Shown here: positions 8,472 through 64,000 of the stretch, in pieces | Numbering within the stretch: position 1 is the first letter of the stretch | Layout: every line of letters begins with the position of its first letter | Assembly (NCBI RefSeq): GCF_018499875.1 | Contig: NZ_JAHBAY010000018.1 | Coordinates: 112,222 to 176,221, forward strand | Direction of reading: 5' to 3' | DNA from: Kineosporia corallincola | GTDB taxonomy: Bacteria; Actinomycetota; Actinomycetes; Actinomycetales; Kineosporiaceae | DNA: 64,000 bases | Notes under the pieces: generated by a model | Told to the model about the DNA's origin: nothing | The model's input: only the letters and a program-made list of their open reading frames with translations | Databases searched by the model: none | Position numbers and translations under genes: made by a program

Positions 8472-8535
8472 CTCGCACCGGTCAGACCTCGCACCGGTCA
8501 GACCTCGCTCCGGTCAGACCTCGCTCCGGTCAGAC
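8472..8535. repeat. Four tandem 16-bp repeats at the 3' end of the AAA+ gene
   Basis: Four consecutive 16-bp units (CTCGCACCGGTCAGAC twice, then the same with A to T at the sixth base twice) run from just past the gene into its last codons (stop at 8530-8532). The unit length is not a multiple of three, consistent with its mostly non-coding position. Confidence 0.85.
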
Positions 8536-11289: not shown

Positions 11290-11687
11290 CGGTTGCCCGG
11301 CCGGAAGATCGCGTCGAGACCGGCGAGCGCGTCCCCCAGCGGGTCGCCGGGGACCAGGGTGTCTGCCAGACCGGGGCCCTGGGCCAGCGGGCCGGCCAGT
11401 TCCGCCGCCCGCGCGGCGGCGGTACGGCGGGCACGGTCGAGCAGTTCCAGCAGGACCGCGGCCAGTTCGGAGGCCGCCAGGTCGCGGTGCGAGTCGTCCT
11501 TGAAGCGCAGGCCGGTGATCGTGCCGCTGAGCGTGCTGGACACGGTGATCAGGCCGTCGTCGCTGGTGACGTCGACCGTCGTGGTCTCCAGGGTGCGGGT
11601 CAGCTCCGCCAGCTGGTCGCGCTGCCGGGCGAACTCCGCGACCGCTGCCGCCATCTCCTCGGCCATGGGGTCGCCCGGTGAGTTCAT
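11286..11687 (-). CDS. YbaB/EbfC-like small protein
   Basis: This 133-residue protein has a long N-terminal helix (about 8-32), a beta-rich centre (TTTVDVTSDDGLITVSSTLS) and a following helix. That pattern matches YbaB/EbfC, small dimeric proteins that in other bacteria bind DNA. In actinomycetes such proteins also occur beside secretion and giant-protein genes, where their role is less clear. The C-terminus (about 95-133) is extended and Gly/Pro/Leu-rich. Translation starts at ATG 11685-11687 with GGAGAG upstream; an in-frame ATG seven codons later has no ribosome site. It lies 98 nt after the giant gene and overlaps the AAA+ gene by 4 bp, so all three are probably co-transcribed. It could be a regulator, a chaperone or an adaptor. 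Confidence 0.8.
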   Translation of the reverse strand: MNSPGDPMAEEMAAAVAEFARQRDQLAELTRTLETTTVDVTSDDGLITVSSTLSGTITGLRFKDDSHRDLAASELAAVLLELLDRARRTAAARAAELAGPLAQGPGLADTLVPGDPLGDALAGLDAIFRPGNR

Positions 11688-11696
11688 CGTTCGTCG

Positions 11697-11785: not shown

Positions 11786-14700
11786 TCACTTCTTCCCGTC
11801 CTCCGGGGGCAGAGCGAGCAGCGCCAGGGCGTCGGTCACCGGATTGTCAACGGTGGACGACGCGGGCGCCGCCGCCGTGCCGTCCGCACGGGTGCCGGCG
11901 TCGGCGTCACTGTCGGCGTCGTTGTGGTTGTCGCTGTCGTTGTCGGCGTCGTCGTCGTTGTCGGCGTCGTTGTCGGCGTCGTCGTCGTTGTCGGCGTCGT
12001 CGTCGTTGTCGGCGTCGTCGTCGTTGTCGGCGTCGTCGTTGTCGGCGTCGTCGACCGGGCCCGGGTGCACCGGGGGGACCACCGCCGGAGCCGATTCTTC
12101 CTTCCCGGCGACGGGACCGGAGGCCGGGGTCGGTTCGGAGCCGGCCGACGGAAGCGGGCCGGCCGACGGAAGCGGGCTGGTCGGCGCGGCGGTACCGGCG
12201 AGCAGAGCCCCGAGCACGTCCGCGCCGGTCGCGCCGCTGCGCTGCTGGGGACCGGTCTCCTCGTGCACCACCGGCGGCTTCACCGGGGCCGCGGCCTTCG
12301 CCGGCTTCGGCCGGGCCACCGGCCGGCCCAGCTCGAAGTAGTGCTCGATCAGCTGGGTGGCGAGCTCGCCGACCGGGAGTGCGCGCTCCGGGGTCATCGG
12401 CTCGGTCTCCGGCGTCTCGTCGTCGTCGGTGCCGAGGCCGAGGCGTTCCTCCAGCAGCAGCACCGCCAGAATCCGGGACAGGTCAGAGCGGATCTGGTTA
12501 CGGGTCTCCGGGTCGAGCAGCGCGCCGCCGGGGGCGTCGTCGAGGCGCGACAGCACCATCTTGCCTGCCGCGATCGACATCCGGACCCGGGCCGCGATGG
12601 TGTACTCCTCGGCCTGTTCCAGTGCCTGCGCGGTCACGGCCTCCCACCAGCGGTCCCGGGCCGGAGCGCGCCCGGGGCCGATCAGCCCGGCGAACTGCCG
12701 GGTCAGGCTGGTCACCTCGAGGCGTCCGACGGCCGTGGCGTCACCCACCGGCCCGGCGTCATCCTGGACGGCAGCTCGGTTCCGGTCGGCGGCGTTCACG
12801 GGTTCGGTCACGGGTGTGGGCTCCTCCTGGGCGTCGGGTTCGACGGCCTCACCGTAGGGGGTATGCCCACCGAAGGCGTTCCCGGCCAGGGTCTCCGGCT
12901 CGATCACCGTTGAACTGGGCTCCTCCTCGATCGTCTCCAGAACGGTTCGCTTCACGACCACCGTTGCGGCAGGCTCCTCGACCTCCGCCAGAACGGGCCC
13001 ATCCTCGACGTCCGTCGGCTCAGGCTCCTCCTCGTTCACCGGCACGGCGGGGCCGTCGAAGAAGCCGGCGAACTCCGGCCGCGCTCCCAGCACCATGACC
13101 GCCGCGGCGGGCAGCCGGCCGATGAAGCCGGCCGGCACGTCCACCGCCAGGTGCGCGCCCCGGGCACCGTGCAGCGCCACGGTCACGTCGAAGGCGAAGT
13201 ACACGTACTCCTGGGTCTTTTCGAAGTTCCGCTCCAGCACGTTCCGGGAGTCGCTGGCGAACGCCGCCGAGGTCTCGGTGTCGGTGCCGAGGCCCAGTTC
13301 GCCCTCATCGGCGCGGTGCTGCTCGTGGTGGTGCTCACCGGCGAGCGCGTCGACGCGGAAGTGCAGGCCCCTCGAGGACTCCCGCTCGTGCTCCACGTCC
13401 GTGGCCGTCTGCACGTAGTTGCGGCCCTTGATCTCGGCCTCGGTCAGCCGCACCGCGCGGTTGACCCGCAGGCCGATCGTCACGTCGCCCTTGGCCAGCG
13501 GAACCGTGTGCGTGTGCGCCAGCATCTTCATCGCCCGCGCCCGCAGGCTGGTGCTGCCGGTCGCCTCGGCCAGCACCGCCCCACGACCGGTGGCCAGCTC
13601 GTAGCCGCGCGGCCCGGCGGCCGGATCCAGCGACAGGTGCTCGGGTTTCACGGTGACCAGCGGCGCGTAGGCGGCGATCACCAGGTCGGCGGGCAGCGCC
13701 ACCGGCTGGACCACCTCCGCCACCCCGGCGCTGACCGGGTCGGCGGCGATGTCCTGTGCCCGGGCGTCCTGGCCCGGGCGCGGGGTGCGGCCCGGGATCA
13801 CCAGGCTCTGCCCCGGCGCGGGCGTCTCCTGCCGGGTCACGTGCTCGGGCACGATCAGCGTGGCCGAGCCGTTGGTGTGGGCCGGGTCGGTCGTCCACAG
13901 CGACCGCCCGGCGTACCAGTACCGGGCAGCGGCCAGCCGCAGCGCGTCGTCACCGGCCAGGGCGCTCATCATCCCGGCGACCCCCAGGAACGAGCCGCGG
14001 GCCAGCGACAGCAGGTGCCGGATGCCGGCAGGCAGCTCCAGCGTGCCGACGGCCTCCATCCGGAACCGCAGGGGGTGCCGGAACTCGTAGGAGCGGTCAC
14101 GCATCGTGGCCCGGGAGATCGCCTTGGCGTCGACCTTCTCGGCGCTCTGCTCACCGCGGCCCCAGCTGCCCCCGGCCTCGACCGTGCCGCCGCCGAGCCA
14201 GCTCGGCGCGAACCCGGCCGCGTAGGCGATACCGCCGAAACCTGCGGTGCTGCGCTCGGTCTCCTTCTCGGTGGTGCCGTCGAGGGCCTGGGTCCGGACC
14301 ATCAGCTTGACGTCCGGCCGGCGGCGCACCTCGTCGGCCGGCAGCGGCTCCGCGCTGACCCGCACCCCGACGTACTCGACGCTGCCGAGGGCCCGGGGCA
14401 CCGGGATCCAGGCCACCACGCCGGTTCCGAGCAGCAGCAGGTGCTGGCGGTTCAGGTTCTCCTCGGAGAACCGGGCGCGCAGGATCTGCATCTGAGGGCT
14501 GGCCGTGCGCTCCTCGTGCTTGCCGAGCACCCCCTTGCCCTTGAGCAGACCGACCACGCCGGGCAGGACGCCGGCGGCCTCCATCGCCTCGGAGTAGGAG
14601 GACCCCAGCGCCAGGTTCGCGTCGAGGTACGTGCGATCGGTGACCAGTGCGGCGCCGAGGTCCGGCGGGTCGCTGCGCAGCGGGCCGCCCCTCATGTCCT

Positions 14701-17700: not shown

Positions 17701-20700
17701 CGGCCAGGCCGAACAGGATGTTCACCAGGACGTCGACGTGCCGGGTGGTGTCGGCCTGGTTCATCCGGCCGGCCGAGGAGCCGCCGAAGCTCACGTGATA
17801 GGTGCGCCCGCTCCCCGGGACCTCCGGGATCTCGGCCCAGCCGGACGGGATCGGGCGCAGCCAGACCAGGTGGCCGCCGACCTCGAACGAGACGCCCTTC
17901 TGGAGGATCTCGGTCCAGCGGTCGATGTCGGTGTCCGGGGCGGCCAGCAGGGTGGCCGGGTCCGAGGCCTTCAGCGCGGCGGCCAGGTGCTTCACCGCGG
18001 TGTCGCGCACCACGGCGAGCCTGGCGGCGGCCTTGGCCGCCCCCAGGCCCTGCACCACGGCCCCGAAGTCCACGCCCTCCAGCGCCCGGGTCGCCATCGC
18101 GGTGGCGACGGTGTCGGTGGTGGGCAGGTCGGCCGAGTAGACCGCGAGATTGCCGAGCACGCCGTAGTCGGTGTACCAGGGCGCGCGCCGGGGCGCCTCC
18201 ACCGCGGCCGGCTCACCCCCGAGCACGGTCCGGATGCCGTAGGTGCGGTCCAGCTCCAGGGCCAGCGCGGTCGGCGCGCCGTCGAGCAGCAGGTGCAGGT
18301 TCGCCCGTCGCTCCGGTGCCAGCTGGTCGACGAGAAGCCGCACCGCGTCCAGGGTTCCGGCGTCCTGACCGGACCCCGCGACGGCGACCACCAGCTGGTT
18401 CGGCAGCGGCCGGGGCAGCTTCACCGGGTCCTGCCCGGCCGGGGTCAGGCTCAGCACCTCACCGTCGCCGCGCACCACCCAGTCGCCACCGGCGATGCCC
18501 TCGAACCGGGCGATCCGTACGCCGGTGCCGGGCCGGCGCGCCGCCAGGAACGTGTCCAGGGCCTGCCGGCCTGGCCGGGACCCGTCGTCGATCAGCGTGG
18601 CCCACGACTCGGGCAACGGCCCGCTCAGGCGCTGCTCGAACGAGGCGAGGTCTCCCGCCCCGGGCCCGGACTCCAGGATCTGTGCCTGCTGCCGCGCGGA
18701 CGGCTCGAACACCCGGTCCGCCGCCTGCTTCGCGCTCTTCCAGCGCTCCAGGGCCGCCGTGGTCACCTTCAGCTGGTCCGCGTGACGCGCGTCCAGCCCG
18801 GCCGCCTCGGCCCGGAGCCGGCCGATCTCCTCCTCACGTGGATCAGCGTCGAGGTCGGTGCGGGTGAGCTGCTTTTCGTCGTCCCCCTTTTCGCCCTTCT
18901 CGGTCTCGGCCGCGCCGATCACCCCGACCACGCCGGCGTGCTCCGCGATCAGCAGGTCGATCCGGTGCTGGACGGCGAGCCGGGCCTGGACCAGGTCGTG
19001 CAGCTCGGTCAGCCGGGCCCGCAGCTCGGCGTGCTCGGCCGAGGGCTGCGCCGCCCCCTCCGGCAGGACGATCGGGGCGTGCCCCTCGGGCAGCCGGATC
19101 TCCGGCAGCAGCGAGACCGGGACCCGGATGCGGGCACCGGACGGGACCTCCACGTGGAAGGTCTCGCGCTCCGTCCTCACGATGTAGCGCAGGTCGTAGA
19201 CCAGCACCGCGTGCTCGTCGCGGTAGCCGATCTTCTCACCGCCGTAAGCACTTCCGCCGAGCTGATCGCCGACGTACTTGGTCGACTGCACCCCCGGCAG
19301 CGGCAGCGACGGCGTGGCCGTGGCCTCGACCGCGCTGATCACCGGGACCCCGGCCGAGCCGGCGCCGAGCGTGCGGGTGCGGATGTCGCGCTCGTCCGAC
19401 TCCGTGGCGGGTGGCGGCTCCAGCACCTCCGAGGCCGAGCCGCTGACGAAAGTATCCGCCTCACCGACGGTTCCGAGCACCCGCGGGTTGCGCATCACGG
19501 CCTGCACGGTGACCCCGCGCAGCACCTCGGTCGGCTTCTCCACCACGCTGCGCAGCAGGCTGTGGACGCTCGCCACCGAGGTCATGTCGGCGACCCGCAG
19601 GTCGGCGGCGAACCGGTCGGCCACCTGACCTCCGACGGTCGAGTACACCGCCTGGCGCAGGGCCCGGCGCAGCGCCTCGCGGCCCTCCACCGGCTCCGGC
19701 GCGGCCAGCAGGTGCGGCCACGGGGCGGCCCCGGCGGCAGCCGGGTCCGGCGGCACCCCGACGCCGGGCGGCGGGGTCTTGGTCAGCTTGCGCGGGCCGG
19801 AAGCGGGCACCTTGCGCACGCTCACCGGACCGGCCTGGACGCTCGCCGCGGTCATTCCCTGGGCATCGAAATGCCTCCGCAAGGTCACGTTCTCGGCAAC
19901 GACGCCGAACTGGCGGCGCTCCCCGTCGTCCACCATGTCGAGCACCAGCTCGAAGTCGCCGCGCATCGAGGCGACGGCCCGCACACCCGTGGTGGTGTGC
20001 TTCACCGACCGGGAGAACCCGGCCGCGCCCATCGTCGAGCGCTCCCGCACCGACGAGGAGCTGAAGGTGCCGGAGACCGCACCGGCGTGCAGTCCGGCGC
20101 CCTGACCGGCCTGGGTGCCGGCGAACTGGCTGTTGCCGCCCTCCGACCCGGGCGAGATGGTGATCTGCGGGCCGACATTCACCTCGGTGTTCCAGCGGCC
20201 GAGGTGGCTGGAACCGTCCATCGCGGCGTTGTCGACCTCGGTGGTGATCGAGCCCGGCGCCAGGTCCAGGCCCTCGATCAGCACGTCGGTGCGCGGCACG
20301 AACCGCAGCGTGACCCGGCCGATCCGCACGTCGGAGCGGCTGTTCTCGGGAAGCACGTCGGTGGGCACGCCGTCGAGCAGCGTGGTGCCGTGCCGGTCCG
20401 GGTCGCGCAGCAGTGCCTCGACCCGTTCCCGGTTGTGCGCCCGGTCCGGGCCGGACTCCGGGAACAGCCGGGCGCGCAGACCGGACGGCAGGGTGAGCAG
20501 GAAGGCCCGGAACATCTGCCCGGCCCGGTCCGCCTCGAAGCCCTCGACCTGCGTGGTCACCGCCTGGCCGAGCGCGAAACCGCGGTCGGCGTCCCGGTTC
20601 CCGGCCAGGAACAGGGCATCGCCCAGCGGCAGCGGCCCGCCCCGCACCACCGACGGCGCGATCAGCCCGGCCAGCGACGGATCGGTGATCGGCACCGCGG

Positions 20701-23700
20701 TCAGCAGCCCGGCGAGCTGCTGCTCGGCCGCCTGGGCGCGCGGTTCCCGGCCTCGCGGGCGCACCGCGAACGGCACCGGCAGCCGCTGCACGTCGGCCTC
20801 GAACGCGAGGGTGTGCCGGATCAGCGCCGACACGGTGTGCCCGGCCTCCAGCTCCAGCGTCGAGGTGACGTAGCCGAACACCGAGTGGTAGGCGGTGCGG
20901 CGCCAGCGGTAGGAGGTGCGGCCCTGCGCGGTGCTCTGGAGCGTGGACTGGATGTCTTCCGGGCGGATCTGGCCGAACAGCCCGGTGAAGGCGAACGGGC
21001 CGTGGTCGAACCGGCGCTCCCCCAGGGCCATCGTGCCGTCCTTGACCTTGAGCAGACGGCCCAGATCGGCCACCAACTCGACGATCTCACTGCCCAGGCT
21101 GGTGACCCTGGTCTTCACCGACAGCCCGGCGATGCTCATCGCCAGGCCACCGGCCGCGGTGATGCCGGGCAGGGTGTGCCGGCCGAACGTGGCGTTGATC
21201 TGGTCGGCCCAGGCCTCCAGCACGTGTGGCTTGCCGGCCCGGCTCATCATCCGCCGGACCAGGCGCAGCAGCACCTCGGTGTCGCGCAGGTAGAGCAGGG
21301 TCTGCGAGCCCGGCACCGGGCCGGTGTGACCGGTCGGCAGGCTCGGCGCGGTGCTGCCGAGCGCACGGGTGAGCAGCTCGTGCACCCGGGCCTGGGCCGG
21401 GGCCTTGACCGCGAACCCGGTGTTGGCCAGGATCTCTCGCCGGTCCGGGTGACCGCCCAGCCGCTCCCTGACGTCGGCCAGCAGGGGCAGCGCCCGGCGC
21501 CGCACCAGCCGCACCGACACCTCGTAGGTGACCACGGCGGAGGCGGCGTCGGCCGCGTGCAGCGAGACCGGGGCCTGCACGACGGTGTGCGTGGTGGTGG
21601 TGCTCTGGGTGCGGTGCCACGACAGCGTCCAGCCGATTCCGGCGCTCGGGCCGAGGGCCCGCCCGGCCGCATGGCCCATCAGGGTGAAGCCGTTGAAGTG
21701 GGAGATGCCGCGCTGCACGGTGTCGGTGACGGAGCCGGAGACCCGCGCACCCTCCAGCTCGGTCAGCCAGTCCCGCAGCCGGCTCAGCCGCGGCCGGACC
21801 TCGACCACGGCCTCCCGGGTGCGGTGCCGCCACTGCGAGGGGCCACGCACGGTGAAGGTGGTGCCGTGGCGCAGCGCGGCGGCACCGAGCTGGCTGCGGA
21901 TCAGGTTGTGGTTGGCCGGGTCCCGCAGGATCGCGGTGCCGCCGATCGTGCCGAGGGCCCGGGTCACGTCGTCGACCAGATGGGCTGAGAGCGCGGGCAG
22001 CACCGCGGCACCGGCCAGCGGGGACCAGCTGTCCGGGCCGAGCAGCTCGAACGCGTCGCCCGGGGCCGGCAGCGCCCTGGGCACGCCGGGCACGGTCAGG
22101 CGGGTGACGGGCAGATCGCCGAGCGGCAGGCCCAGCCGGCGGGCCTCGCCGAGCGGGATGCTGACCAGGCCGACGGCGGAGGGGAGCTCCTCGCGCCGGT
22201 CTCCGGTGAGGCTGTCGGCCCAGCGCTTCCGGGCCGGGTCCCAGACCTTGTCGCGGACCGCGAACCGGGCCAGGTAGATGACCGTGTCGCCGTGGGTGGT
22301 GTGGGTCTCCTCCACGCCGTGCTGGAGGTCGAAGGTGGTGGAACGGCCGTGTTCCCAGGTGCCGGACAGCATGATCTCGCCGGAGGCGAAGTTCAGCACC
22401 GGCACCCCGGCGACCGCGGTGAAGGTGCCGGCCAGGGTGAGGCCACGGGCCCGGGCATCGGTGTAACGGGCCGACGACGTGAGGTCGGTCCGCAGCCTCA
22501 GGTCGGTGTCTTCGAGCAGGCCGATCGGGCGCAGCGCCTCGATCGTGGCCGAGGTCAGGTACCGGGTGCTGAGGCCGGAACGCAGGCCGAGCCAGCGCTT
22601 CGGGCCGGTCACCGCGGCCGAGGCCACGCCCACGCCGGAGCGCGCCGCGTTGCCCAGTGAGCCGGCCGTGGTCAGGGCGTCGATGCTCGGTCCGGCCTGG
22701 TCCTGCTCGCCGAGCCGGCCGACGGCCGCGCGCCGGGCCCGGGCCAGGCCCGCGATGCCGACGACGCCCTCGATCCGGGCCTGGGCCGGGGCCGGGGCCC
22801 AGCCCAGGCCCGGATGGGCGGTCAGCGGGGAGGCCAGGGCCATCCGCTGGTCCGCGGTGAGGGTGACCGCCTCGCCGTGGATCGGCCGGACCGGCTCGGA
22901 GGTGATCACCACCGGGTGCTCGCGGGTGACCTGGGCGACCTGCTCCCCCGGGGTGCCGTCGGCCGCCTTGCGGTGCACGGTCAGGGTCACCACCAGGAAC
23001 TGCTGCTCGGTCGGCGCGACCGCGCCGTCGTGCTGGGTCTCGGTGGCGCTGGTGGAGATCATCGTCAGGCCGTTGTCGGCGCCGGTCCGGCGCCAGGGCT
23101 GGGCCTGCACACTCGGCACCAGGGTCAGGCCGAAGGCCGGGACCGGCACGGTGACCTGGGCCGGCACCCGCTCGGTGGTGGAACCGCCCTGGTAGCGCAG
23201 CAGCATGCTGTTCTCGGTGGCGGTGTGCACCCGGCTGTGCGGCCCGGCCTTCGGTTCCCCGGCCGGTGAACGCCGCACCGACGCACGCACATTCATCACG
23301 TGCTTCTCGCCGGCGTCCTGCCAGGTCCCCTCGTCCACGGTGATGTCGCGCAGCGAGTAGATCAGCGTGGTCTGAAGGCCCTTGGGCAGGGCCGGCTCGT
23401 CCAGCCCGGCCTCCTCGTGCACCGCCTTCAGGTGGTCCACGGCCAGCTCCGGTTCGAGCAGCTTCTCCAGCACCCGGGACTCCTGGTGCTGGTCGAGGAA
23501 GGTCTGAAGGTCGGCCGGCTCGATCAGCAACGGCTCCGCCGGGCCGGGAACCGGTGCGTGGAACGCCTCCCGGCTGCGGGCCAGGGCCAGGTCGAGCCGC
23601 AGGTACGCGGCGTAGTCGAAGGTGATGTCGTCCGGTTCCAGCAGGCCCGGGCGGCCGATCGTGACATTCACCGGCGGGTGCCCGGAATCGGCCTGCTGGC

Positions 23701-26700
23701 CGGAGAACTCGAAGCACAGCCGGATCGCCTCGGTGTCCGGCAGACCCGGCGCGGTGAGCACGGTCTCGGTCTCGGAGAACGTGCGGCCGCTGTCCCGGAC
23801 CCGGGCCGGGTCGGCGGCGACGACCAGCGGATGATCGGTGGGAAGCCCGCCCACCCAGCCGTCGCGGGCGTCGTCCACCATCGGCAGCAACCGCGCCGAC
23901 CGGCCGAGGCGGTCCAGCTCGTCGCGCACCGCGCGCACCAGCCCGGCGTGCGAGGCCGTCAGGTCGTAGACGTCCAGCCAGTGCGCCGCTCCGGCGGTGA
24001 TCAGCCCGCGGTCCCCCGCGAGCACCAGCTCGTAGAGGGTGCGCAGGTTGCGCAGGGTCGGGGGCACGTCGAGCTCGTCGCCCATCAGCGAGGGACCGGC
24101 GTCCAGCATGCCCGGCTGGAAGTAGGCCGGCCGCTCGGCGGTTCCCTCGCCCGCGTGCATCCGCCGCCAGGCGTAGCGCAGCGGGTCCGCGTCGTAGCGG
24201 TGCGCCGGGTAGTGGTCGAGCAGCCCGAGCCGGTGCGACGCCTCGTGCGAGAGAGCCATCGGGACGGTCTCGACGAAGACCCGGTCGGAGTTCTCGTGCC
24301 CGTTCCCCGCGGCGACCCACATCACCAGGCCACCGACGGGAACGACCGGCCCGGTGGTGATCTCGGCGTTCACCCGGATGAAGACGGTGCGGCCACCGGC
24401 CGCGAAACCGGCGTTGTCGTTCCAGGTGGCCCGCAGGCCCCCGGCCATCCGGCCGGCCACCTCCACGAGTTGCTCGGCGCTGACCCCGTTCTCGGCGACC
24501 AGATGCAGGCGGGGCCGTAGCTCGACGAGCCGCACCTCGCCGTCCTCGAGGTCGATGATCCTGGCCTGGTAACGGAAGTCGAGCACCTTCGCGGCCAGCG
24601 TGCGCTCCGTCGCCGCCGTGCGCAGCACCTCGGCCAGGGCGTTCGGGCCGAGGGCGAGCAGCTGCTCGTTCAGGTAGCCGAGCAGGAGCTCGTCCCGACC
24701 GCTGCGGCGGAACGCCGGCTCGGCGGCCACGGCCTGGCGGGAGGCGATGACGTTCGCCAGGGCGCGCAGGGTCGGGCGCACGGTGCGGTCGACCGGCCGG
24801 ACGCCGTCCAGGTACGGCTGGATCGCCGCCGGGTCCGGGCCGACGGTGCGCCGGGCGGCCAGCTCGCCGAGCAGGGTGGCGATCGGGTCCGGGTCTCCGG
24901 CCGCGGCCATCCGGCCGAGCACGGTCCGCCCCCAGTCCCGCAGGGTCTGCGGGGCCTGGGCCGACAGCTGCCCGGGCGGCAGCAGCCCGTCCCGGTAGCC
25001 GGCCTGCTCGATCATCCGGATCAGGGTGGACTTGGCGGCGCCGTGCAGAGCACCGGTGCCGGCCAGCACCCCGGCGATCTCTCCCGCCGGGAGCAGCTCG
25101 ACCACGTGCCGGTCGACGTACCCGGCCGACTGACCGCTGACCGGCACGATCGTGCCCCTCCCCGGATCGGCGAGTGCCGCGTCGTACGAGTCCTTCCAGG
25201 CCGCCCCGGCCTGGGCCACGGCCTCCCGGGCCGACAGGTCGGTGCCGGGCGTCGGCTGCGGGGCCTTCAGCGGGCGCCGGTCGTCGTGCAGCACGATCCG
25301 GGTCTGCCCGGGCATCAGGTGACGCCACCTGGTCAGCTTGGCGGCGGCGGTCTCCGCGTCGTGCACCTGGGCCGCCGAGACGGTGGCCCGGGTGGCGTGC
25401 GCGGGCAGCGCCTGGGCCACGGCACCGACCGAGCGGATGTCGGAGAGCACCCGCCCGGCGCCGGTGCGCAGCACGTGCACGGTGGCGTGGACGCCCTCGA
25501 TCGGCTGCCCGTCCAGGGTGTGGATCTCCCCGTCGTCCCGCACCCGGCTGATCACCGTGTCCGGCAGGTCCGGCGACTCGAGCTCGGCCTCCCAGCCCGG
25601 CGACGGGAACAGCATCTGCCCCAGCCGGCCGACCAGCGCCTGGCCGACCCGCTCGGCTCCGGCCGGCGGACTGATCACGGGCAGGGCGGTGCCCGGCAGC
25701 GGATGAGCCCGCAGCCAGCCGCGGTACACGTCGGTGTCGGTGATCGGCCGCACCTGGGCGCGGAAACCGTTGACGTCGCTGAGATCCACCTGGTCCGGGG
25801 CGAAGATCAGGTCGGTCCCGAACTCCTCGACCAGGGCGGCGGCGAACTCGGCCGGGACGTTGCCCAGCACCAGCCGCATCCGCCCGCGCTCGGCCGGCGG
25901 GCGGCTCGCGATCACGGTGCGCACCAGGTCCTGGGTGGCGGCCTGGGCGCCGTCCGCCAGCACCTGGCCGGGACGGCCGGAACCGAGCTTGCGGCGCCGG
26001 TTCTCACCGGGCTGGTGGCCGTCGGCCCCGGCCCCGAGCACCAGCAGGACGAACCGCGACGGCTCGGCCACCGGCGCGGGCACGGCCGACACGTCGGTAC
26101 CGGCCGGGGCGAGCGCCAGCCAGCCGTCGCCGCGGCGCCCGTCCCAGATGCCGCCGGGCAGTTCGATCTTACGGACGACGTGGCTGCCCAGCATCCGGCC
26201 GGGCGCCACCACCTCGGCGATTTCCGGCTCCAGCGGCCGGAATCCGGCGCCGAGATGGTCGACCAGCCAGGCCCGGCCACCGTCGGCCGACTCCAGGCGG
26301 CGGGTCCGGGTCCAGCCGGCGTCCGGGCCGGTCGTCTCGCTGGGGTCCAGCGGCAGGCTCCTCCAGGTGTCCGGGTCGATCGGCCCGGGCGAGTGCACGA
26401 TGTCCAGATCGTGTTCGGCGACCAGGTCGCGCACCACGGCGTCGGGCAGGTACTCGGCGAAGATCCGCCACGTCCGCACCCCCTTCGCGGCGCCTTCGGC
26501 CAGGACGCCGGAGACGGCCCGGCTGATGCTGGTGTACGAGGCGTCGGAGAGCGCTCCCTCGCTCACCACCAGCGCGGTGCGGCCGGGTTCGGCCGGAATC
26601 CGGCCCAGGTCGTACGGCTGCTCGTCGTGCCAGGTCAGGGTGACGCCGCGGTCGTGCCTGCGGGTGATCCAATCCCGGCCGGGGTTTTCGTCGTCCGTGC

Positions 26701-50700: not shown

Positions 50701-53700
50701 AGACCTGGGTGTGCGACACGTCGGTGCGGAACTCGCCGGCCGCGATCGGGGTGATCGTCTGGTCGGCGGTGACCCCGGTCGGGCGGAAGTTCAGCTGGTT
50801 GGTCCGGGTCGAGGTGTCGGTGACCCGGGTCCGGCCCGCCTGCTGACCGGGCAGAGCGGTGCCCCGCGCGCTGATGTGCGAGATCACCGTGTCCAGGCCG
50901 CCGGTCGCCACCGCGCGGCCCCGCACCTCGGCCAGGCCCGCCAGGTCGGCCGGGTGGGCGTTCAGCGTGATCGTGACGATCTGCGGCCCGAACCAGGACC
51001 GGAAGATCCCGCGCAGCCGGGCCTGGCCCTCAGGGCCCAGGTTGACCAGCGTGCGCAGGCCCAGGGTGCTGGCGTACTCGTTGATCCGGGTCCGCAGGCC
51101 GGGCAGGTAGGTGCTCGATCCGGGCGTCATGATGCCCGGGGCGTTCGCCTCGACCATCCGCACGATCCGGGCGTCCAGACCAGAACGGCCGGTGCTCACG
51201 TCGACGCCGGTGACCGTGCCGTAGCCGATCTGGCCGCCGGTGTCGCCGTACCAGGCCGGCAGCCGCAGCTCACGCGGGCCGGGCGCCGGGATCTCGCGGG
51301 CGCCCTCGACACCCGCGTCCCGCTGCCGGATCAGCTCGGCCAGCTGCGGGTGGTTGTGCAGGTCGTTGTCGACGAGATGGAACTGCACGCCCTCGGCGAC
51401 CTCGACAGCCTTACGGAACTGCGAGCGTCCCAGGTTCGTGAGCGTGTTCACGCCCACGTTCCGGGTGCCGACGTTCACCGTGACGACGTAGACGGCCCGG
51501 GCCGAGAAACGGTGGCTGTGGACCGTGTCCTCGGTGGTCACCCGCATCGTGCTGGTGTTGTCACCGGTCGACTCGGCGTGCGAGCCGCCGCGGCCGAACA
51601 GGTACTGGCCGCCCGGGCGGAAGTGGTGCCCGGACCGGTTGGCCGTCACACCGCTGCGACCGGACTGGCTGGTCGTCGTCCCCAGGTTGTTCCCGGTGGT
51701 CGACTGGAGCCAGCGCTCGGCGTCCAGCGGCGGGGCCGCGGACAGCGCGCTCACGTCGGTCAGATACCCGCGGACCTCGATCGAGACGTCCGTCCCGGCC
51801 AGGTAGCCGGAGGTGACGACGCCCTCGACCAGGTAGCCGTCACGGAAGATCCGCAGCGGGTTGCCGTGCAGGTGCTCGGCCGAGAACACGCTCTGGAGCA
51901 TCGTGTTCGCGCTCGACTCGGGCGAGGTCAGCCCCTCGCCGAACATCGCCTGGCCGGCCACCCGGGCCGCCGTGGTCTCCGAGAGCCAGTGCGCGGCACC
52001 GACGACCAGGTCGCCCAGGAATCCGAGCACCGAGCGCGGGGGAACCACCATCGCGGCGCCGTGCGGGACCGGGATCGTCAGCGGGGCAGCAGGTTCCGGG
52101 TTTCGCTCCGGGGCCAGCACCGCGGGCTCCGGGCGCGCGATCAGGTTTCCGGCCGTCGGCCAGGCACCCGGAACCAGGCTTCCCGGATCGACGGTGGAGG
52201 TGTCGGTCTCCTCCTCGAGCGCGTCCCTGAGGCCGAGGGCCTCGCGGACCAGGCGCTGGAGCGCGCCGCTGCCCTCGACCCACTCGACCAGGGCCGTCTC
52301 CGGCATGGTCAGGACGCCCTGGGCGGCAACCGCTTCCGGGGTCCGGGCGGCCAGGCGCAGCTCGTCCTGGGCGGTGACGTCACGGGACGCCGGCAGCTGC
52401 GGGCGCGGGGCCCGCGTGGGCTCGGTCAGGGTGCGGAAGGTCGGCACGGCCAGGGTGACCAGGCCGTCCACCGGCGCGAGCACCGGGGCCTCACCGTAGG
52501 AGTAGGAGACGTCCAGCGTGTGCGTCGCCGGAATCTCGAACAGCTCGGTGCCCTGCGACGTCGGGCTGAGCATGTAGTACTCGTGCCCGGTGCCGAGGCT
52601 GGCGCCGACGCTGTGCGAGGTCGATCCGGCGTGGGTGTACTGCCCGCCGACGCTCGCACCGCCGACGTACGACCCGTCGGAGACGTCGCCGCCGGCCTGG
52701 GCCGAGCCGCTGACGTTCGCGTTCCACGACAGCGGGGTGATCGAGGAGGTCTCCTCGCCCGGCATCGTCGAGCCGATGAAGTTCAGCGTCTGGGTGCGCG
52801 GCAGGTTCTTGACCTGGCGCACACCCGCCTCGTCGCCCTCGGCCAGATAGCGCCGGACGGTCTTCAGGTTGGCCGAGACCTTGTGCGTACCGGCCTTGCC
52901 CGGCATCTCGAAGGTGGTCAGCGAGCCGCCGTCGATGGCGTCGTCCAGCCCGCCGCGCAGACCTGCCCGCGAGCGCATCTGGTCAAGCTTCTGCTGGTTC
53001 TTCAGGCGGGCGGCGCTGATCGCGTCCGGGCCGAGGATCGCCCGGGCGAAGCGGTTGTCGGTCAGGGCCTCGAAGGCCGCGCCGGCCGTGCCCGGCTCGC
53101 CCACCGGGGGCAGGAAGCCCTCGGCGCGCAGGAACTGCTCCAGGCCGTCGAACAGCGGTGTGGTGCCGGTGACGTCGGTGGCGGAGGTGGACAGGCCCAG
53201 GACCCGCAGGTGCAGGAGCTCGGCCGGCAGGTGCCGGACCTCGGTGACCGGGCCGTCGATGACGCTCGCCTGCGGCACCTGGAGCACGGCCGGGTAGGTG
53301 GTCTCCGGGATCTCCAGGCGGGAGCCGGCGACCGGGCGCACCGGGCCGCCGTCGGGGCGGACCAGCTCGAACCGGAACCGGACCCGCGCACCGGCCCGGG
53401 GCATGACGCCGGCGGCGCGCAGCGAACGGACCAGGCGGGCGCTGCCGCCGGATCCGAGGGTGTGGGCGTGCTGGTAGGTACCGTTGGCGCCGAAGCCGAA
53501 CCGGCCGGCGCTGGGCGCGATCTCGGGGGCGAACCCGAAGCTCAGGTCGGCGCCCGCGCCGGAGGCGTTGGCGGTGGTCACCGACGTCTGGCCACGCATC
53601 GAGCGGACCACGTAGGCCTCGAGCACACCGTTCTGGAGCGGCGGCCCGGCCGGGGTCAGGTCGCCCACCAGACCGGCGCTCACCCGCAGGTACCCGACCG

Positions 53701-56700
53701 CGTTACCGGCCCGGTCGTAGAGCATCGGCGAGGGGGTGAAGGCGCCGAAGAGCATGAGCGGGAAGTTCGCGCGCAGATCGCCCTCGGACAGGAACTGGCG
53801 CAGGTCGTCCCAGGAGTCGGTGCTCAGGCCGGTGAACCGGCCGGCGAACGCCTCGGCCACGTCGATCAGGATCTGCCCGGCGTCGGGGAAGCTCTCCGCC
53901 CCGAACAGCGGCGCGTCCGAGAGCTGGAGCGGGGTGGGCAGAACCAGGTCGTTCGCGGTCGGCGCCTCGTGCAGGTGCTTGGGGAACCAGACCTCCAGAC
54001 GCGGTGTGGGCACGATCGTGTCGGTGATCGTGCGCCAGCCGTCACTGCCCCGCAGGGCGCCGGATGTGACGTCGGACAGGCCGCCCCGCAGCAGGTGGTA
54101 CTGCCAGCGCATGGTGAAGTCGTAGCGCCACGAGCGTTCCCGGCTGCGCAGGATGGTGAACGCCTGGATGCTCGTGCCGGTCGTCATCACCCGGCTGGTC
54201 TGGTTCAGCGTCCAGCCCACGCGGCCGGTCAGGCTGACCGAGCGCAGCGGGACGCCGTCCTCGAAGTTCCACAGATGGGTGTACGAGTAGCCCAGGGTGC
54301 GAAGGTCGATGCTGGTGGCGGTGGTGCCGAGTTCGGGCATGCCGAACGCCCAGCTCTGCACGGTGACGGGCGGGCCGTCGGGCATCTCCTCCAGCCCGGC
54401 CTCGATCAGCCGGGCGTCGGAGGTGTCGAGGCGCAACGCCACCCGGTAGTCGCCGCCGGACCGGAACGGCACGACGTACCCGTCCTGCGAGAACAACGCC
54501 TCCCAGGCGGTACTCAGCAGGCGCGGGGTGAACAACTGGTTCATCCGGCCCGAGAATGCCGGGCTGTAACCGAATTCGGCCGAGACCGCGTTGGTCAGCG
54601 TGCCGCGCAGGTGCTCGACCAGGTCGGCGGGCACCGGCCGGATGTGCGGCATTCCGTGGGCACCGCTGCGGTCGGACCCGAAATCGCGGATCAGCGGCTG
54701 GATCCCGTCCACCGGGTCGAGACTCAGGCGGGGTTCCAGCACCAGGCCGGACTGTGCCTCGACGACCGGGGTGCCCGGGGTGGAGGCGGTGCTGGACTCC
54801 GCACGCAGGGACGGCGCCGAGTGACCGGCACCGACTCCGCCCTCGGTGACCGCACCGTCCGAGGCCGCGATCGACTCGACGATCGAGCCGACCGATCGGA
54901 CGCTGCTGGCGGAGCTGTCCGCCCGGTGCCGCCGGGGCGCCGGGTCGAGGTGGGGATCGAGGTGGGCAGAGCTCTCCTGCGGCATCTCGGCGAAGTCCGT
55001 GACCTGGGTGGTCGCCGCCACCTCGTCGACGTCCTCCACCCGGATCGCCGGGAAGGCCTCGGCGTCACGGGAGCTGCCGCCGGGGATCCGGCCGCGCTCG
55101 ATGCGCAGGGCTCTGATCGTGCGGCGGGCCAGGTCCTCGATCGCCCGGACGGCCGCGTCGTCCCAGCCCGCGCCGCCGTCGTCCTCCAGGTCGTGCCCGG
55201 TCCGGGCTTCGATCAGCAGGGCCGTGACGATCGGGACGATCTCGCGGACGGTCCGGCGGGCGTTGTCCTCCCGGGAGTTCCCGAGCCCGGAGGTACCGTA
55301 CCCACTGGCCCGGCCGACGACGACCGTGGCCATCTCGCCGAGCTCGAAGTTCTCCCGCCGGCTCAGCTGGCCCAGCACCCGCTGGGCCAGACCGGCCCCG
55401 GTGGCGGACCAGTCCTTCCGGACCCGGTTCAGCTCGGCGTCCTGCTCGAAGGTGACGCCGGGCTTGAGGTTCCCGGCCATCGCGGCGTACCGCGCGGCCG
55501 TCTCCCGGGCCAGCTGCTCCAGATGGTCCACACCGGCGGAGACCTGGGCCTGGGTCAGCCCGACGGCCTGTGCGGCGTCGGCCGAGAGCGGGCCGAAGTC
55601 GTGGACCTCCTGGGCCGGGGCGGCCTGCGGGCGCAGGCTGCTCAGCGGAAGGGCCGGGCGCAGGCGCAGTTCCGGCCGCGGCAGCCCGCCGAGCCGGTCC
55701 AGGACGACGTCCAGGGTCTCGAGCATGGACCGCTGGACGGTCCACACCCGCTCGGCACCGGCCGAGACGATCTCCCAGGTGTTGCGGGCGTCGATCGTGC
55801 TGTGCAGGGGGGCCTCGGCGGAGACGCCCTCGGGACGGGCCACCCAGGTGCCGCCGTGCGGCGCGGCCAGCGGGCCGGTCACCCCGACGATCATCGAGTC
55901 GCCCGGAAGGCCCTCCACCCCGGCCATTTCCACCAGGGTGTCGGTGCCGGCCGGGAGCGAGTCGGAGACCAGCAGGATCACCCTGATCCGCGGGTCGTGG
56001 GCAACCAGCGGGGTCAGGTACCGGGTGGCGAACTCGGCCGGCGTCAGCCTCTGCCCGTAGGCCAGCACCGGCGTGGTTCCGGTGCGGACCGTCGGCGAGG
56101 ACGACAGGACCACCTCGGGCCGGTCGAAGCCGACGTGGACGACGGCGACCTGCGGGTCGGCGACGGCCGGGAACGACTGGACGTCGACCAGCTGCCGGTC
56201 GACGACGGCGCGGTCGGTGGGCACCCGCGAGGGCAGGTACCAGCCGGACGGCACCCTGATCGGCACCGGGATCCCGCCCCAGGCGCCCAGTCCCGCGTCC
56301 TGGAGCAGGCGCTGCGGCGACCAGGACGCCTCGATCAGGTTGCGCACCCGGAAGGTCAGCGGCAGCTCGGTGCCGCCGTAGCCGATCTTGTCCCGCTCGT
56401 TGCGGGTCTTCATCGTGATGGTGACGACCGCGTCCAGGTAGACCGGGCCGTACCAGGTGGTGTCGAGCGACCAGGCGTCCCAGTGCGTCGCCGCGCGCCG
56501 CGAGCTGGAGGCCTGGATGCCGGTGCGGCCGGTGTACATCGGCGAGGAGATGACCAGTGGCTGCACCACCGGGCCGGCCGGGGTCTCGCCGACCCGGGGC
56601 TGGCTGGTGTTGACGGAGTACCAGGAGTTCGGCCCGGCGCCCCGGACCGAGCCGGCCTGGGCCGAGCGCCCGCCGGGCGCCGACGTCATCGTCATCACGT

Positions 56701-59700
56701 CGGCCCGGCCGGTGACCTGGGCCTGGGTGAAGTCGGTCGTGGCCTTCGGGTCGACGAGCCGGAAGCTGACCGACAGCGAGCCGGTGACGTCGGTGAAGAC
56801 GCTGCCGGTGGCGCGCAGCGGGACGCCCAGACGTGCGGCCTCGCCGACCGCACCGGTGCCGCGGGTGAGCAGGTGGTGCTCCAGCACCGACGGGTCGGCC
56901 AGCGCGCGCAGCTCGTCCTGCCCGACCTGGCCCCAGGCGGCCAGCAGCGCGGGGGTGCCGGCGTGCTCGGCCAGGGCCGCGGCCCAGGCGTCGTACAGGT
57001 GACGCACCTTGTCCGGGTCGATCCGGAGGTTCACCTCGTGGTCGACGAAGGCCTTGCGGTCCAGCCGGACCTCGGTCACGCCGTCCGGGATCCGCCCGGG
57101 GGCGAGGCGGGTGATGATCGGCTGCCCGGTGGCCGCCGGGAGCGAGCGGGTCAGGTCGGCGGTGGAGACCACGACCGTCTCGCCCAGCGGCACGCTGCGG
57201 CTCTCGACCCTGGCCGAGGTACCGCTCGGGTGCGCCGCGGTGACGCCCTGCGTCTGCCGGGCCAGCGCCGCCGGGGCGCCGAGCGCGAGCGTGTTCAGCA
57301 GCGGCGAGGGCCGCCAGACGCTGATCAGCGTGATCTCGATCCGGGCCTCGCCGAGCAACACGCTGAGCGGTCCGGAGGCCTCGAAACCGTCGTAGCGCCA
57401 GTCGGAGACGCTCATCGAGCCGCCGGAGCCGGAGCTCCAGCCGCGCAGCAGCTCGGCGATGAACTGGCTCTGCGGGTAGCTGGGCCGGGCGATGCCGTCG
57501 ACGATCGCGGCCAGCCCCGGGGCGATCGAGACCGACTGCGCCGTGCTCCAGGTCGAGCCGGCCCGCATCTCGCTGCGGTTGATGTAGTAGAGGCTGCCGT
57601 CCTGGGCCTCGGTGACGACCATGCCGCGCGCGGCCGGGTCCCGGTCGAAGCGGATCAGCAGCTGAGTCGTCCTCTGGCCGAGGAACTTCCCGTCCACCCG
57701 GGTCAGCAGCAGGCCACCGGCGCGCAGCACCGGCGTCTGGCTGTTGAGCACCTGCGGAGCGAGCATGACGTCCAGGCCGCCACGCAGCGAGGAACCGGGC
57801 ACACCCAGCTGCCACAGGCCGCTCAGGGCACCGGGCTCGTGCCGCGCCAGCAGGTCGGTCGCGGCGCTCAGCACCGGGTTCGTCCTGGTCAGTGCGGGAG
57901 CGCCGGCCGGGGACTGGAGGTGCTCGGTGACCGAGTTCAGCGGCACCAGCGGGAATTCCGGCACCGGCGTGGGGTCGGTGGCACTCAGCGGCGCGACCGG
58001 CACGACCCGCTCGGACTCGCCCGCCGGGAGCGCGAACCGCCGCACGCCCGTCGGTGCGGGAGCGGCCGGGCGCAGCAGCCGTGGCTCGTTCTCGCGCAGC
58101 GCCGGCAGGGCCGGGTGCGCGGCGTCCTTGATGTTCAGGGCCTCCAGGTCGGACAGGGTGAAGGCGGTGCGCTCGGGGGCGTAGTAGCGGATGCCGTCGG
58201 GCACGTCCACGTCGGTCGCGGCCGCCCGGAGCCCGAGATGCTTGTCCAGGCGCCGGCTCTCGGTGAGGTTGCGGTTGGAGACCACGACCACGCGCCAGCG
58301 GACCGCGCCGATCTTCCCGGTGTGCGGCAGCTTCAGCGTCAGCTGGTAACCGGGCAGGCCGGTCAGGGTGGCGAAGTCGCCGTCGCTCTGCGAGATCCCG
58401 TAGCTCGGGCCGACCCGGACCCAGGTACCGCCGCCGGACGGGTTGCCGAACGCGTCCACGTCCTTGACCTCGGAGGCGCCCAGACGGATGTTGGCCTCCA
58501 GGCCGAATCCGGCCGTGGTCGAGGACCACGAGGTCGCCGAGGCCGCGTACTCGACCAGGAGACTGGTGTCGAAGACCGCGGGGGCGGTGCCGTCGTCCTG
58601 CACCGAGTGGACCACCGGGATCAGGGCGAAGTGTGCCTCCCGGTCGCCGAAGGTCAGCTTCTGCGACATCTGGCCGGTCTGGCCGGTGGTCTCGCGCAGG
58701 AACACGCCGCGCAGGTGGTCGCGGGTGACGGCGGACAGCGCCCAGGTGCGGGCCTCGTCCGGGTCGATGCCGACCCGGGCCAGCTGCGCGACCAGGGCCG
58801 CGCGCACGGCGGCCACGCCGTCCACGTCCGTCACCCGGTCGAACGGCCGGATCCCGACCGTGCCGTACGGGTCGTCCACCGGTGAGAACACCCAGCCGTG
58901 GTCGAACTTCCACCAGCCGGTCCGGGCACGGGCCGGGACCTGCGTCGCCGTGCCCGGTTCCGTGCCGGCCGCCAGGACGTTCAGCTCGTGGGTGAGCCGG
59001 TCCACGGCCAGGGCCGGGACCTCCTCGGCCTGGGCGGGGGTGCCGCCCGGGGCCACCGGCGTCGGCGCCTGGCTCCGCGGTGCGGAGGCGGTCAGCGAGG
59101 TGAACGGCTCCGGCACCATCCAGGCGGCCCGGGTGGCGAACTCCTGGCGGACGTCGGCCGCCAGTCCGGGGGCCAGGCGGTGGGCCAGCTTACGGGCACC
59201 GGACTCGATCGCCTGGACGATCCGCGAGGACAGGTCCCTCGACAGCCGCCGGGTCACCGAGACGTTCAGCGTGACCTGGGCGTCGTAGCGGTAGATCCAG
59301 GCCGGGCCGGAGTACGACAGCGGCTTGTTGACCTGGCTGATGTGGTCGACGTCGACGCCGTCGGAGTGGGTGCGCGAGGCCGCGGACCCGGCCGCCACCC
59401 GGCCGGTCAGCTTCCGGTCGCTGCCCGGGATCGGCAGGCTCAGGTACCAGCGCGTGCCCACCGAGACCCCGGTGCTGCTGGAGTCGGTGCTGGAGTGCGT
59501 GCTGTCGAAGTAGCCGCTCGGGTTGATCGTGATCGCGCCGTCGTTCACCCAGATCGACTCGGCGGGCTCGGAACTCGTGCGCCGGGCCGACATCTCGAAG
59601 GTGATGTGCTCGACGTCGCCGGAGTTCAGCTCCCGCACGAAGGTCTCGCTGTGCCCGCCCTCGGTGAAGATCAGGTCCTGGCGGTGGCGCACCTCCGGCT

Positions 59701-62700
59701 CGCCGAACCGGGTCAGCAGCCACTCCTGGAGCTCCAGCTGCTGGCTGCGGGTCCACCGGTCCACGCGCACCTGGGCCTGCCCGGCCTGCGGCGCCGGGCT
59801 CCTGCGGCCCCGCTCCACCTGGGCGAGCAGCCCGAAGAACTGCTCCACCAGGTCCTGCGTGCCGGTGAGCCCGAGGTGCCCGGCGAAGCCGACCGAGCCG
59901 ACCGGCCTCGCGAAGGCCGCCGGGGCGAACCGGGGTACCTCCGGGACCGGCGGGGCCAGCCGCACCTGCGGCCGGTCCGTCTCGGACAGCCCGTGCAGGG
60001 CCCGCTCGAACAGCCCGGCGAGCTCCTCGGCCACCCAGACCGTCACGGTCAGGTCGGAGACCAGGTCCTTCGCGGCCGCCGCGCGCTTGCGCGAGTCCGC
60101 GAGCAGTTCCTCGCTCTCCACCGTCATCCGGACCTGGAGCTGGTACGGCACGCTCGGGCCGTTCAGCCCGACCTGGTCGGTCGTGCCCTGGTTGACGCTG
60201 TTCTGAAGGGCGGTGCCGCGCGAGGTGCCCAGCGGGAAACCGGCTGCGGCGTAGGGCACCCAGTCCCCCAACGGGGCCGGGCTGACCCACAGACCCAGGG
60301 CCAGGCCGAACGAGCCGCTGTTGCCGTGACCGGCGAACTGGCCGGTCCAGGCGCCGCGGTTCTGGCGCACCGGGACCTGCACCGCCGGGCCCATCCGGCG
60401 GGCGGCGAGCACCTCGGCGTTCAGGTGGCTGACCAGCCGCCGGCCCTTGGCCATCAGCAGCGGCGGCAGCGGGACGGTGGCGCCGAACAGGCGCGGCATC
60501 TCCAGCCGGACCGAGGTCTCCCCCAGCCGATGGTCGACGGCCGTGGCCAGGTCGGAACCGGCCACGGCCTTCAGCTCGGTCAGCAGCGCGCGGTTCAGCC
60601 AGCCCAGGCCGCCGATGCTGCCCAGGCCCGGCAGCACGGTGCCGAGCGCCTCGGTGAGCGGGGACTCCTCGGTGCCGAGGATCCACGGACCGGGCTCGGG
60701 CCGGTAGGTGGCGATCGCTTCGGGGAACGAGACCCGCAGCGTGTTCGTCACGTCGGCGCGGTGTTTCGTGGCCGTCGTGCCGGTCACCCGGATCTCGGTG
60801 CGCAGCCGGGCCGGCAGGTCGAAGTAGACCTGCTTGCCGGCCGTGACGATGCCACCACCCGCGCCGGAGTCCAGCGTGTGGCCCTGCGCCCGGGTGGACG
60901 TGGACGAGCCGCTGACCCCGACGCTCGGGAACAGCACGACGTTGCCCTGGGCGATGGACGTCCACACCGACAGGTCGACCGTGCCGCTCTTGGTGATGGA
61001 CTGCGAGATCGCGTTCGCCCGCATCGCCACACCGTCCATCGGCCCGGCGATGCCCTCACCGGTCCGGCGCAGCGGCTGGCGCGACGGGCGCACCCGGTGC
61101 GCCCCGGCCCGGTCCACACCGGTCAGGGTCAGGGTCATGGTGTGACCGTCAGCGGCCACGTCCAGGCCGCCCTCCAGCATCATCCGCACCGCGCCGGTGG
61201 CGCCGAGGTCGGCGATCCGGGTGGCCAGGGCGTTCTGGAGCGCGGAGAGGGTGGCCGGGGCGGGAGCCCGGTCCACGTCGGTGGCCCGGGCGACGAACTC
61301 GGCCTCGTCGAACCCGTGCCCGGCGTAGCTCTCGGCGAAACCGTGCGGCCCGAAGGCGTACTGCTGCGCACCGGCGACCAGGTTCTCGCCGGCGACCGGC
61401 AGGTCCACCGGCTCGGCGAAACCGGCCGGCAGACGGGCGGGCAGGGCGGTGCGGTCGGCCTGGTCGTCGACCAGCCGGCGGACCAGGTCGAGGGTGGCCG
61501 CGTTCAGGCCGGCCGCCTCCTGCGTCGTGGCCAGCCGGGCCAGGTCGCGCACCAGCGTGATCATCGCCAGGGCGTTCACCAGGTCGGTCAGCGGCAGGAA
61601 CCGCTCGGCCGCCTCGTCCACGGCGCTCACCCAGGCGGAATTATCGTGCCCGGGAACCATTCTCGGGTCGATCTGCTCCCCGACCAGGTCGCGGACCCGC
61701 TCGACGAGTCGCTCGTGCCGCAGGTCCACCTCTTCGTCCCGCAGGGCGGAGTCGAAGCGCTCGGCGATGACCGGCGCCGAGGCCAGGTCCTGGGCCAGGG
61801 TGCGCAGGTTGTGGCGGGCGGTGTCGTCCAGCCCCTCCGCGACCGGGTCGGCGTCCTCGTCCAGACGGGTCAGGGCCGCGTCCAGGCTCTCGACGGCCCG
61901 TGCCCGGAACGGCGTGATCTCCTCGCTGATCGAGTCGTCGCGGAGCAGGTGCGCCACCCGGTCGATCGCGGCCAGCATCGAGATCGCGTCCGGGTCGCTG
62001 AGCATGGTGTCCAGCAGCAGGCGCTGCACCACCCCGCCCGCCAGCGGCGTGCGCTCGGCGATGAGGTTCTCCGGCAGCATCGGCAGCCGGTCCTCCAGCC
62101 GCAGCAGCCCCTCCACCAGACCACGGGAACGGGACAGGTCGAGGACGTCGGCGGTCAGCTGCGGGTCACCGCCGCGCAGGGGCTGCTTTCCCCTGCTGAC
62201 GTCCGAGACACCCGACCGGCCGGACACACTCACCTGGTCGGCGGGCAGCGCCTCGAAGTCTTCCAGGCGTGAGGATTCCGCGCTCAGCGAGGGCGGGAGC
62301 GGCGCCTCGACGTTCGGGGACAGCCGCGGCGAACCACCGGCCGAGGAACCCTCGGGACGCAGTGACGGCGGACGCAGCGATCCGGCCTCGGAGGCCGCCC
62401 GGCTGCGCCGGCCCGGGCTGACGCTGCCGAGCTCGGCGCGTTCCGGGATGTCCAGCGAAAGGGTCACCTGCGGGGCGTTGCTGGGACCGGCGCCCGGGGA
62501 ACCGATCAGACCGGCCGAGCCGGGAGCGCCGGCCATGCCGCCGGCGCCACCGGGACCCGCACCGCCGCGCAGGCGCAGCCGGCCGCCGGTGTAGAGGTTC
62601 AGCACCTCCCAGGCCATGTCGCCGACGGTGTGCACGATGGCGGTCACCCGCGCCATCAGCTCGCCGACCAGGTCGACATCGATGTGCTGCACGGCCCCGG

Positions 62701-64000: not shown

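Follow-up and report, generated by a model that had tools for sequence, protein, structure and literature searches.

The right-hand end of contig C18 (NZ_JAHBAY010000018.1) of Kineosporia corallincola raises the question of whether a reading frame that stays open for 52.2 kb is a real gene and, if so, how long it is and what its product does. In this study, we analyzed a 64,000-nt stretch of this contig (hereafter, the window). A frame scan verified that minus-strand frame 0 runs from window base 64000 down to a stop codon at 11786-11788, which amounts to 17,404 stop-free codons and agrees with an earlier, sequence-only reading that had described a frame of at least this length, open at the window edge.

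11786..64000, minus strand: giant open reading frame (ORF), 17,404 codons, truncated 5' at the contig boundary

The window part alone encodes approximately 1.86 MDa of protein. Since the last base of the window is also the last base of C18 (176,221 bases), its right edge is a physical contig end and the gene is cut by the assembly. Residues of the giant are numbered here from this cut end.

At a GC content of 73%, openness alone is little proof, because one antisense frame contains only 17 stops. The five other frames across the same 52.2 kb carry 454, 102, 17, 212, and 315 stops, compared with approximately 271 expected per frame if bases were independent at this composition, and plus-strand antisense ORFs reach 3,892 amino acids (aa). 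Long antisense frames being common at this GC content, we put the weight on homology. In a search of 23 relatives, 15,027 of the 17,404 residues (86%) have a counterpart, at E <= 1e-5, in another giant ORF or fragment, and 14,894 of them have matches in other genomes; the longest stretches without a match are aa 4827-5495, 16986-17404, and 148-412. Moreover, the GC contents of the three codon positions (0.743/0.520/0.944), a check proposed in the sequence-only reading, reveal a coding pattern, with 0.944 at the third position. The frame is one real gene by codon structure and homology, and the claim that it is no GC artefact stands. An assembly artefact, a pseudogene, or an untranslated high-GC open frame would draw on the frequency of long spurious frames at high GC, of which the antisense ORFs are an example. 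This explanation has to account for the codon-position GC, for the homologues of 86% of the residues, and for complete relatives of 8,190-23,988 codons, independently assembled in other Kineosporia, including a one-contig genome. We regard it as practically negligible.

Extension to the right, also proposed as a means to find the start, meets the contig end; a probable 5' part was found on contig C11. Among the 106 contig ends of the source genome (8.2 Mb), 69 were read, 36 lie on contigs that read N, and the right end of C27 was left out. At eight of the 69, a coding-like frame of 200 codons or more runs off the contig, and only the one at the right end of C11 (C11R) shares the third-position GC (GC3) of the window gene (0.94-0.96). 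This frame comprises 6,165 codons, or 6,115 if counted from where a complete gene of 8,190 aa in a sister species (G001, C34:153028-177597) begins in the alignment. Along the G001 gene, the counterpart of C11 comes first and those of the window follow: C11 aa 51-2516 align with aa 1-2165, window aa 606-2767 with aa 5286-7425 (identity 44-63%), and window aa 17094-17281 with aa 7887-8070 (identity 36%, E 1.8e-8). On one side the G001 gene is flanked by a C11-type EccC gene (71.5%) and ESX-sized genes (52% and 69%), and on the other by a window-type beta-helix-AAA gene (74.8%). In G005, a C11-side neighbour gene (90.7%) adjoins window-type YbaB (62.5%) and beta-helix-AAA (76.8%) genes on contig C25, the arrangement expected of a site without a giant. 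Markers of both sides are separated by 99 kb in G003, whose genome is a single contig, by 118 kb in G002, and by 142 kb in G004 (Kineosporia babensis JCM 31032). We discarded the gene order of K. babensis as support for the join, because in this species the block of genes from the C11 side is inverted and the giant goes with a different ESX gene set. The evidence for the join comes from G001, G005, G002, and G003.

Because the G001 gene spans both halves and the flanks are adjacent in G005, the C11 and C18 halves are very probably parts of one gene. If so, this gene comprises 23,519 codons plus a gap, that is, at least about 23,500 codons. Should the halves instead belong to two different giant genes, their lengths could not be added up. 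Exact overlaps of at least 20 bases between contig ends were not found, the gap between C11 and C18 is unsequenced, short contigs are masked (N), and the right end of C27 lies outside the 69 ends read; all of this would suit two genes. The complete G001 gene, the adjacent flanks in G005, and the matching GC3 argue against them, and we consider this alternative very improbable. Separately, a lone cysteine occurs at approximately aa 6108 of the C11 half (L112, near the 3' end), just before the contig break. The stretch around it has no NCBIfam match; it may resemble the starts of papain-fold toxins.

What does the giant contain? A module of up to approximately 1,000 aa recurs five times in the frame, at about aa 5,900, 7,240, 8,890, 11,460, and 12,460, with 26-52% identity where aligned; homologous modules in the same frame had already been noticed in the sequence-only reading. 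The chain also holds five predicted metzincin domains, listed here with their zinc motifs.

44600..45151, minus strand: predicted metzincin domain 1, aa 6284-6467, HERGHRLARMD
39833..40405, minus strand: predicted metzincin domain 2, aa 7866-8056, HEFFHSLGGQD
35225..35806, minus strand: predicted metzincin domain 3, aa 9399-9592, HEGSHTIGELD
27158..27724, minus strand: predicted metzincin domain 4, aa 12093-12281, HEASHRIGLLD
24005..24571, minus strand: predicted metzincin domain 5, aa 13144-13332, HEASHRLGLLD

The motif HExxHxx[GA]xxD is present in all five (four with G, one with A). Its Glu and Asp are invariant in 36 of 36 aligned domains and both His are kept in at least 90%, while HExxH is kept in 35 of 41 metzincin domains. 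In 11 modules, an invariant Met follows the first motif His at a distance of 54 residues and is a candidate for the Met-turn. For domain 4, an AlphaFold model (m9dc44ea789b7, aa 12080-12325) predicts a metzincin-like fold. Among proteins of solved structure, those closest in sequence are Streptomyces snapalysin-type proteases, with a match of approximately 20 residues around the motif. The domains share with snapalysin (family M7) and other metzincins the HExxHxxGxxD motif and the predicted fold. Unlike snapalysin, they occur as five copies inside a giant chain, behind alpha/beta units and a segment with the sequence LHDDR. Metzincin domains devoid of HExxH occur in L052 and L053 (K. babensis) and in L104 (C2 of the source genome), and some carry an extra motif residue; it is possible that those without HExxH are inactive copies kept inside giants. 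In addition, a G005 ORF of 2,812 codons (L072:6050-14485) combines a metzincin domain with a Pfam match to TcdA/TcdB-type glycosyltransferases (1.9e-6).

Around the modules, the chain is a mosaic of large blocks that are shared with other giants.

55691..62185, minus strand: block A, aa 606-2770, homologous to blocks in the G001, G002, G003, and G005 giants
49523..54751, minus strand: block B, aa 3084-4826, 32-44% identity to a block of the C5 giant (11,288 aa) of the source genome
26711..29623, minus strand: module M4, aa ~11460-12430, two alpha/beta units, LHDDR segment, metzincin
23561..26623, minus strand: module M5, aa ~12460-13480, ~50-52% identity to M4
18872..23599, minus strand: block C, aa 13468-15043, 54-71% identity to aa 9308-10997 of the K. 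babensis 23,988-aa giant
13046..18514, minus strand: block D, aa 15163-16985, 46-66% identity to aa 13752-15564 of the G002 17,449-aa giant
12158..12721, minus strand: C-terminal tail domain, aa 17094-17281, 36% identity to the C-terminal region of the G001 8,190-aa gene, E 1.8e-8
11896..12053, minus strand: acidic D/N-rich tandem tail

Block B is also matched in G174, and window aa 9785-10213 recur in the K. babensis giant. The exchangeable blocks measure approximately 2,000 aa and their order varies among giants. Within 13 genomes of the family, block C was found in two, those of the source species and K. babensis, the latter also carrying it weakly in a 2,967-codon ORF. The G001 gene retains both ends and block A and has no counterpart of window aa 2770-17090. 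Since this copy shares both ends and differs in the middle, the giant seems to change by gaining or losing entire blocks while its two ends stay fixed, as judged from one pair. By profile comparison, blocks E and F are related (91%), A scores 40% with E and 25% with F, and B, C, and D have no link to any other block (best below 3%); as only E and F are clearly related, we do not claim one common block family. A sequence search of solved structures with block A gave no match.

Several candidate identities were discarded. The usual reading of most huge bacterial proteins is that of a nonribosomal peptide synthetase (NRPS) or a polyketide synthase (PKS), according to a survey (PMC11573180). Consistent with the absence of their signatures reported in the sequence-only reading, no such domain, and none of another known multidomain enzyme, was found in the window part at the Pfam (E <= 0.1) and NCBIfam (E <= 1) cut-offs used; ketosynthase, acyltransferase, condensation, adenylation, and carrier domains are not among the matches listed. 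A pentapeptide Pfam match (6.6e-11) falls on a low-complexity (AGTEL)n tandem array and was not read as a Qnr-like domain. Matches to AbiEii (17.4 bits, cut-off 22.5) and DUF6374 (14 bits, cut-off 25) were below threshold. MSCRAMM adhesin models (NCBIfam, E 0.04-0.41) were far below cut-off and lie on acidic low-complexity stretches. Within the giant frame, 15-bp units are also repeated in tandem at 49055-49357 and 48623-48778, where they encode (AGTEL)n and (GAWND/GARND)n; these arrays are likely fast-changing linkers.

The genes around both halves point to a type VII secretion system (T7SS). Next to the giant in the window are the following genes.

11286..11687, minus strand: YbaB/EbfC-like protein, 133 aa, next gene downstream (PF02575, E 5.5e-10, above cut-off)
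8530..11289, minus strand: right-handed beta-helix and AAA ATPase protein, EccA-like (PF13229, 3.3e-50; PF00004, 1.1e-15)
6261-7223 and 7383-8279, minus strand: pair of ricin-type lectin proteins, next after the EccA-like gene

Against the EccA model TIGR03922, the beta-helix-AAA protein stays under the cut-off (E 1.7e-69), and the related SpoVK and CbbX models give somewhat higher scores; the beta-helix-AAA family is present in nine of the 11 giant loci examined, and relatives of the lectin family in four of them. Beside the C11 half, we found an EssC/EccC ATPase gene (7.6e-164) and an ESAT-6-like gene (3e-05), both below the NCBIfam cut-off. Taking the C11 link as we infer it, the giant would have ESX core genes as neighbours. 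At its N-terminus, the C11 half scores 23.5 bits against T7SS_signal (PF21725, cut-off 27), and WXG100_2 domains (PF25547, cut-off 27 bits) head other giants, namely those of K. babensis (41.2 bits), C5 of the source genome (64.4), and G174 (30.2). The G256 giant, outside the genus, has EccC-, EccD-, and beta-helix-type neighbours. ESX-4 clusters have been published for Kineosporiales (PMC4791881).

The amino acid composition is also distinctive. The window chain contains a single Cys, versus approximately 116 expected from 63 ordinary genes of the source genome's own loci. Among 12 other ORFs above 5,000 aa, 11 have at most six Cys and the last has 11 versus 73 expected, some of the Cys counted falling before the likely start; the G256 giant has 12 in 12,978 residues. 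Such chains would be compatible with unfolded export. We propose that the ~23,500-codon product is exported by the type VII (ESX) machinery encoded beside its gene, a step that we consider likely, and unfolded transit would explain the missing cysteines. After export, the five internal metzincins would cut the chain into blocks, and the released blocks would act outside the cell, on other cells.

Is the protease a processing device? Zhang et al., 2012 (PMC3482391) describe a location rule by which internal peptidases process and C-terminal ones poison. Because of this rule, we read the internal metzincins as releasing peptidases rather than payload, which we advance tentatively and somewhat short of an even chance. 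If they were instead the payload, digesting proteins of prey or competitors while the carrier stays uncut, one would expect the catalytic motif to be intact in all five window copies, as it is, and the kinship with snapalysin-type proteases would be natural; several zincin domains are also listed as toxins in the 2012 survey (PMC3482391). The same survey places toxin peptidases at the C-terminus and processing ones inside or N-terminally, and here all five are internal, which makes the payload explanation quite unlikely. Returning to release by the metzincins, the 8,190-aa G001 and 13,394-aa G003 giants have no match to HExxHxxGxxD. This weighs against our proposal and makes the protease step optional at best.

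The action of the released blocks on neighbouring microbes is similarly conjectural, a possibility to which we give a little less than equal weight. No Pfam or NCBIfam toxin family was found in aa 13201-17404, where remote or unknown ones could be missed. The organization of a classical polymorphic toxin, with a conserved N-terminus and a variable C-terminus, was not observed, as the G001 pair (one pair) shares both ends. The next genes after the giant encode the YbaB-like, beta-helix-AAA, and two ricin-type lectin proteins; immunity genes that are small or of an unfamiliar kind could have escaped notice. It might be argued that the giant is an exported surface or matrix protein, such as an adhesin or a coat, with structural blocks, with metzincins acting as remodelling enzymes or persisting as relics, and with nothing killed. 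The window part is devoid of known toxin domains, large blocks without known domains make up much of its length, HExxH is absent from some metzincin copies, and the MSCRAMM models mentioned above were at least listed, far below cut-off. Moreover, PMC10066038 and PMC12863079 interpret giants of other bacteria as surface proteins or coats. Against this stand the T7SS-type loci, the conservation of HExxH in 35 of 41 metzincin domains, and the Pfam scan of the window part, in which no family of cell-wall anchors or adhesion proteins appears (signal peptides being outside the scan). We consider a surface role unlikely. A multidomain effector exported by the T7SS is the leading explanation, to which we give an even chance, with self-cutting and action on neighbours as its less certain details. 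The full picture of a near-Cys-free polyprotein of ~2.5 MDa, threaded through the T7SS, diced outside by five metzincins, and with middle blocks swapped between the giants of the genus while its ends stay fixed, is rather doubtful as a whole.

How does the giant compare with known systems? Zhang et al., 2012 (PMC3482391) report gigantic actinobacterial proteins that exceed 10,000 aa and carry several peptidase and toxin domains; SACTE_5178 of Streptomyces sp. SirexAA-E (13,652 aa) is the longest of them. The giant is a larger variant of these multi-peptidase proteins: it is actinobacterial, exceeds 10,000 aa, and has several metallopeptidase domains in one chain. It exceeds the SACTE_5178 kind in length and differs from it in being surrounded by T7SS-type genes. 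Zhang-type domains (anthrax-lethal-factor-like peptidase, caspase, ART, MCF1-SHE) were not found in the window part, a scan that covers this part and not the middle of the C11 half and that could miss remote forms. Regarding size, an Omnitrophota ORF of 39,678 aa (PMC10066038) bears out the statement in the sequence-only reading that larger bacterial proteins are known. The Omnitrophota giants, described as having few annotated domains (PMC10066038), and Giant1-5 of Apilactobacillus (PMC12863079) are likewise very long single chains. Unlike the Kineosporia giant, they belong to other phyla, and the text of these papers that was consulted mentions no T7SS locus; the likeness is one of description. 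No paper on Kineosporia giants was among the literature matches listed, subscription papers and preprints being outside the scope of the search.

The giant resembles T7SS (ESX/WXG100) effectors in the EccC-type ATPase and ESX-sized genes beside its probable 5' half, in the EccA-like gene downstream, and in the WXG100_2 heads of its relatives. Unlike them, its own head is a sub-threshold T7SS_signal match, on another contig. Known T7SS substrates comprise some hundred to a few thousand residues, and to our knowledge the giant is far larger than the LXG and WXG effectors described. If export holds, it would be among the largest secreted bacterial proteins, and the known size of type VII substrates would rise to more than 20,000 residues. 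The question is testable within the genus, where complete natural variants of 8,190, 13,394, 17,449, and 23,988 residues exist at ESX loci. The protease domains are small enough for single expression, and the EccC gene beside the probable 5' half can be removed.

Finally, we addressed how widespread these giants are. That of K. babensis is closed at both ends and has 23,998 codons (23,988 from the first start). Other giants closed at both ends are those of G002 (17,449), G003 (13,394), and C5 of the source genome (11,288), while those of G005 (17,664), G230 (16,885), and C2 of the source genome (14,275) are cut by contig ends. In the source genome, giant ORFs and fragments add up to at least 67,464 codons, that is, 202 kb or 2.5% of 8.2 Mb, a cost calling for a function. 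Some pairs of contigs begin or end in identical or nearly identical sequence that lies within giant ORFs (C26/C28, C31/C32, and C31/C34 of the source genome; C9/C25 of G005). Assemblies seem to break inside repeated giant sequence, and therefore the lengths of giant genes may often be underestimated.

A search of relatives found the module in five of 58 genomes, the source genome included, all of one genus. Outside the order and within the same class, G174 has a 19,630-codon frame, likewise closed on both sides (L228-L231, C17:1913-60802), that matches the window protein over 3,657 residues. Searches of the protein database gave no match at E <= 0.001 (437, 7,988, and 7,982 candidates scored), which, given the length and word filters of this database, is weak evidence of rarity. 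Profile searches of the class recovered A1 in three of 394 genomes, the source genome included (two candidates scored per genome), and A3 in 64 of 394 at E <= 1e-3 (eight candidates scored per genome). Thirteen of the 64, including the source genome, persist at 1e-10; most of the other 51 have short weak matches around HExxH, in ORFs of approximately 240-1,490 aa. A scan of genome contigs recovered one locus, from K. babensis, identical to a stretch of contig C12 of G004 with matching coordinates.
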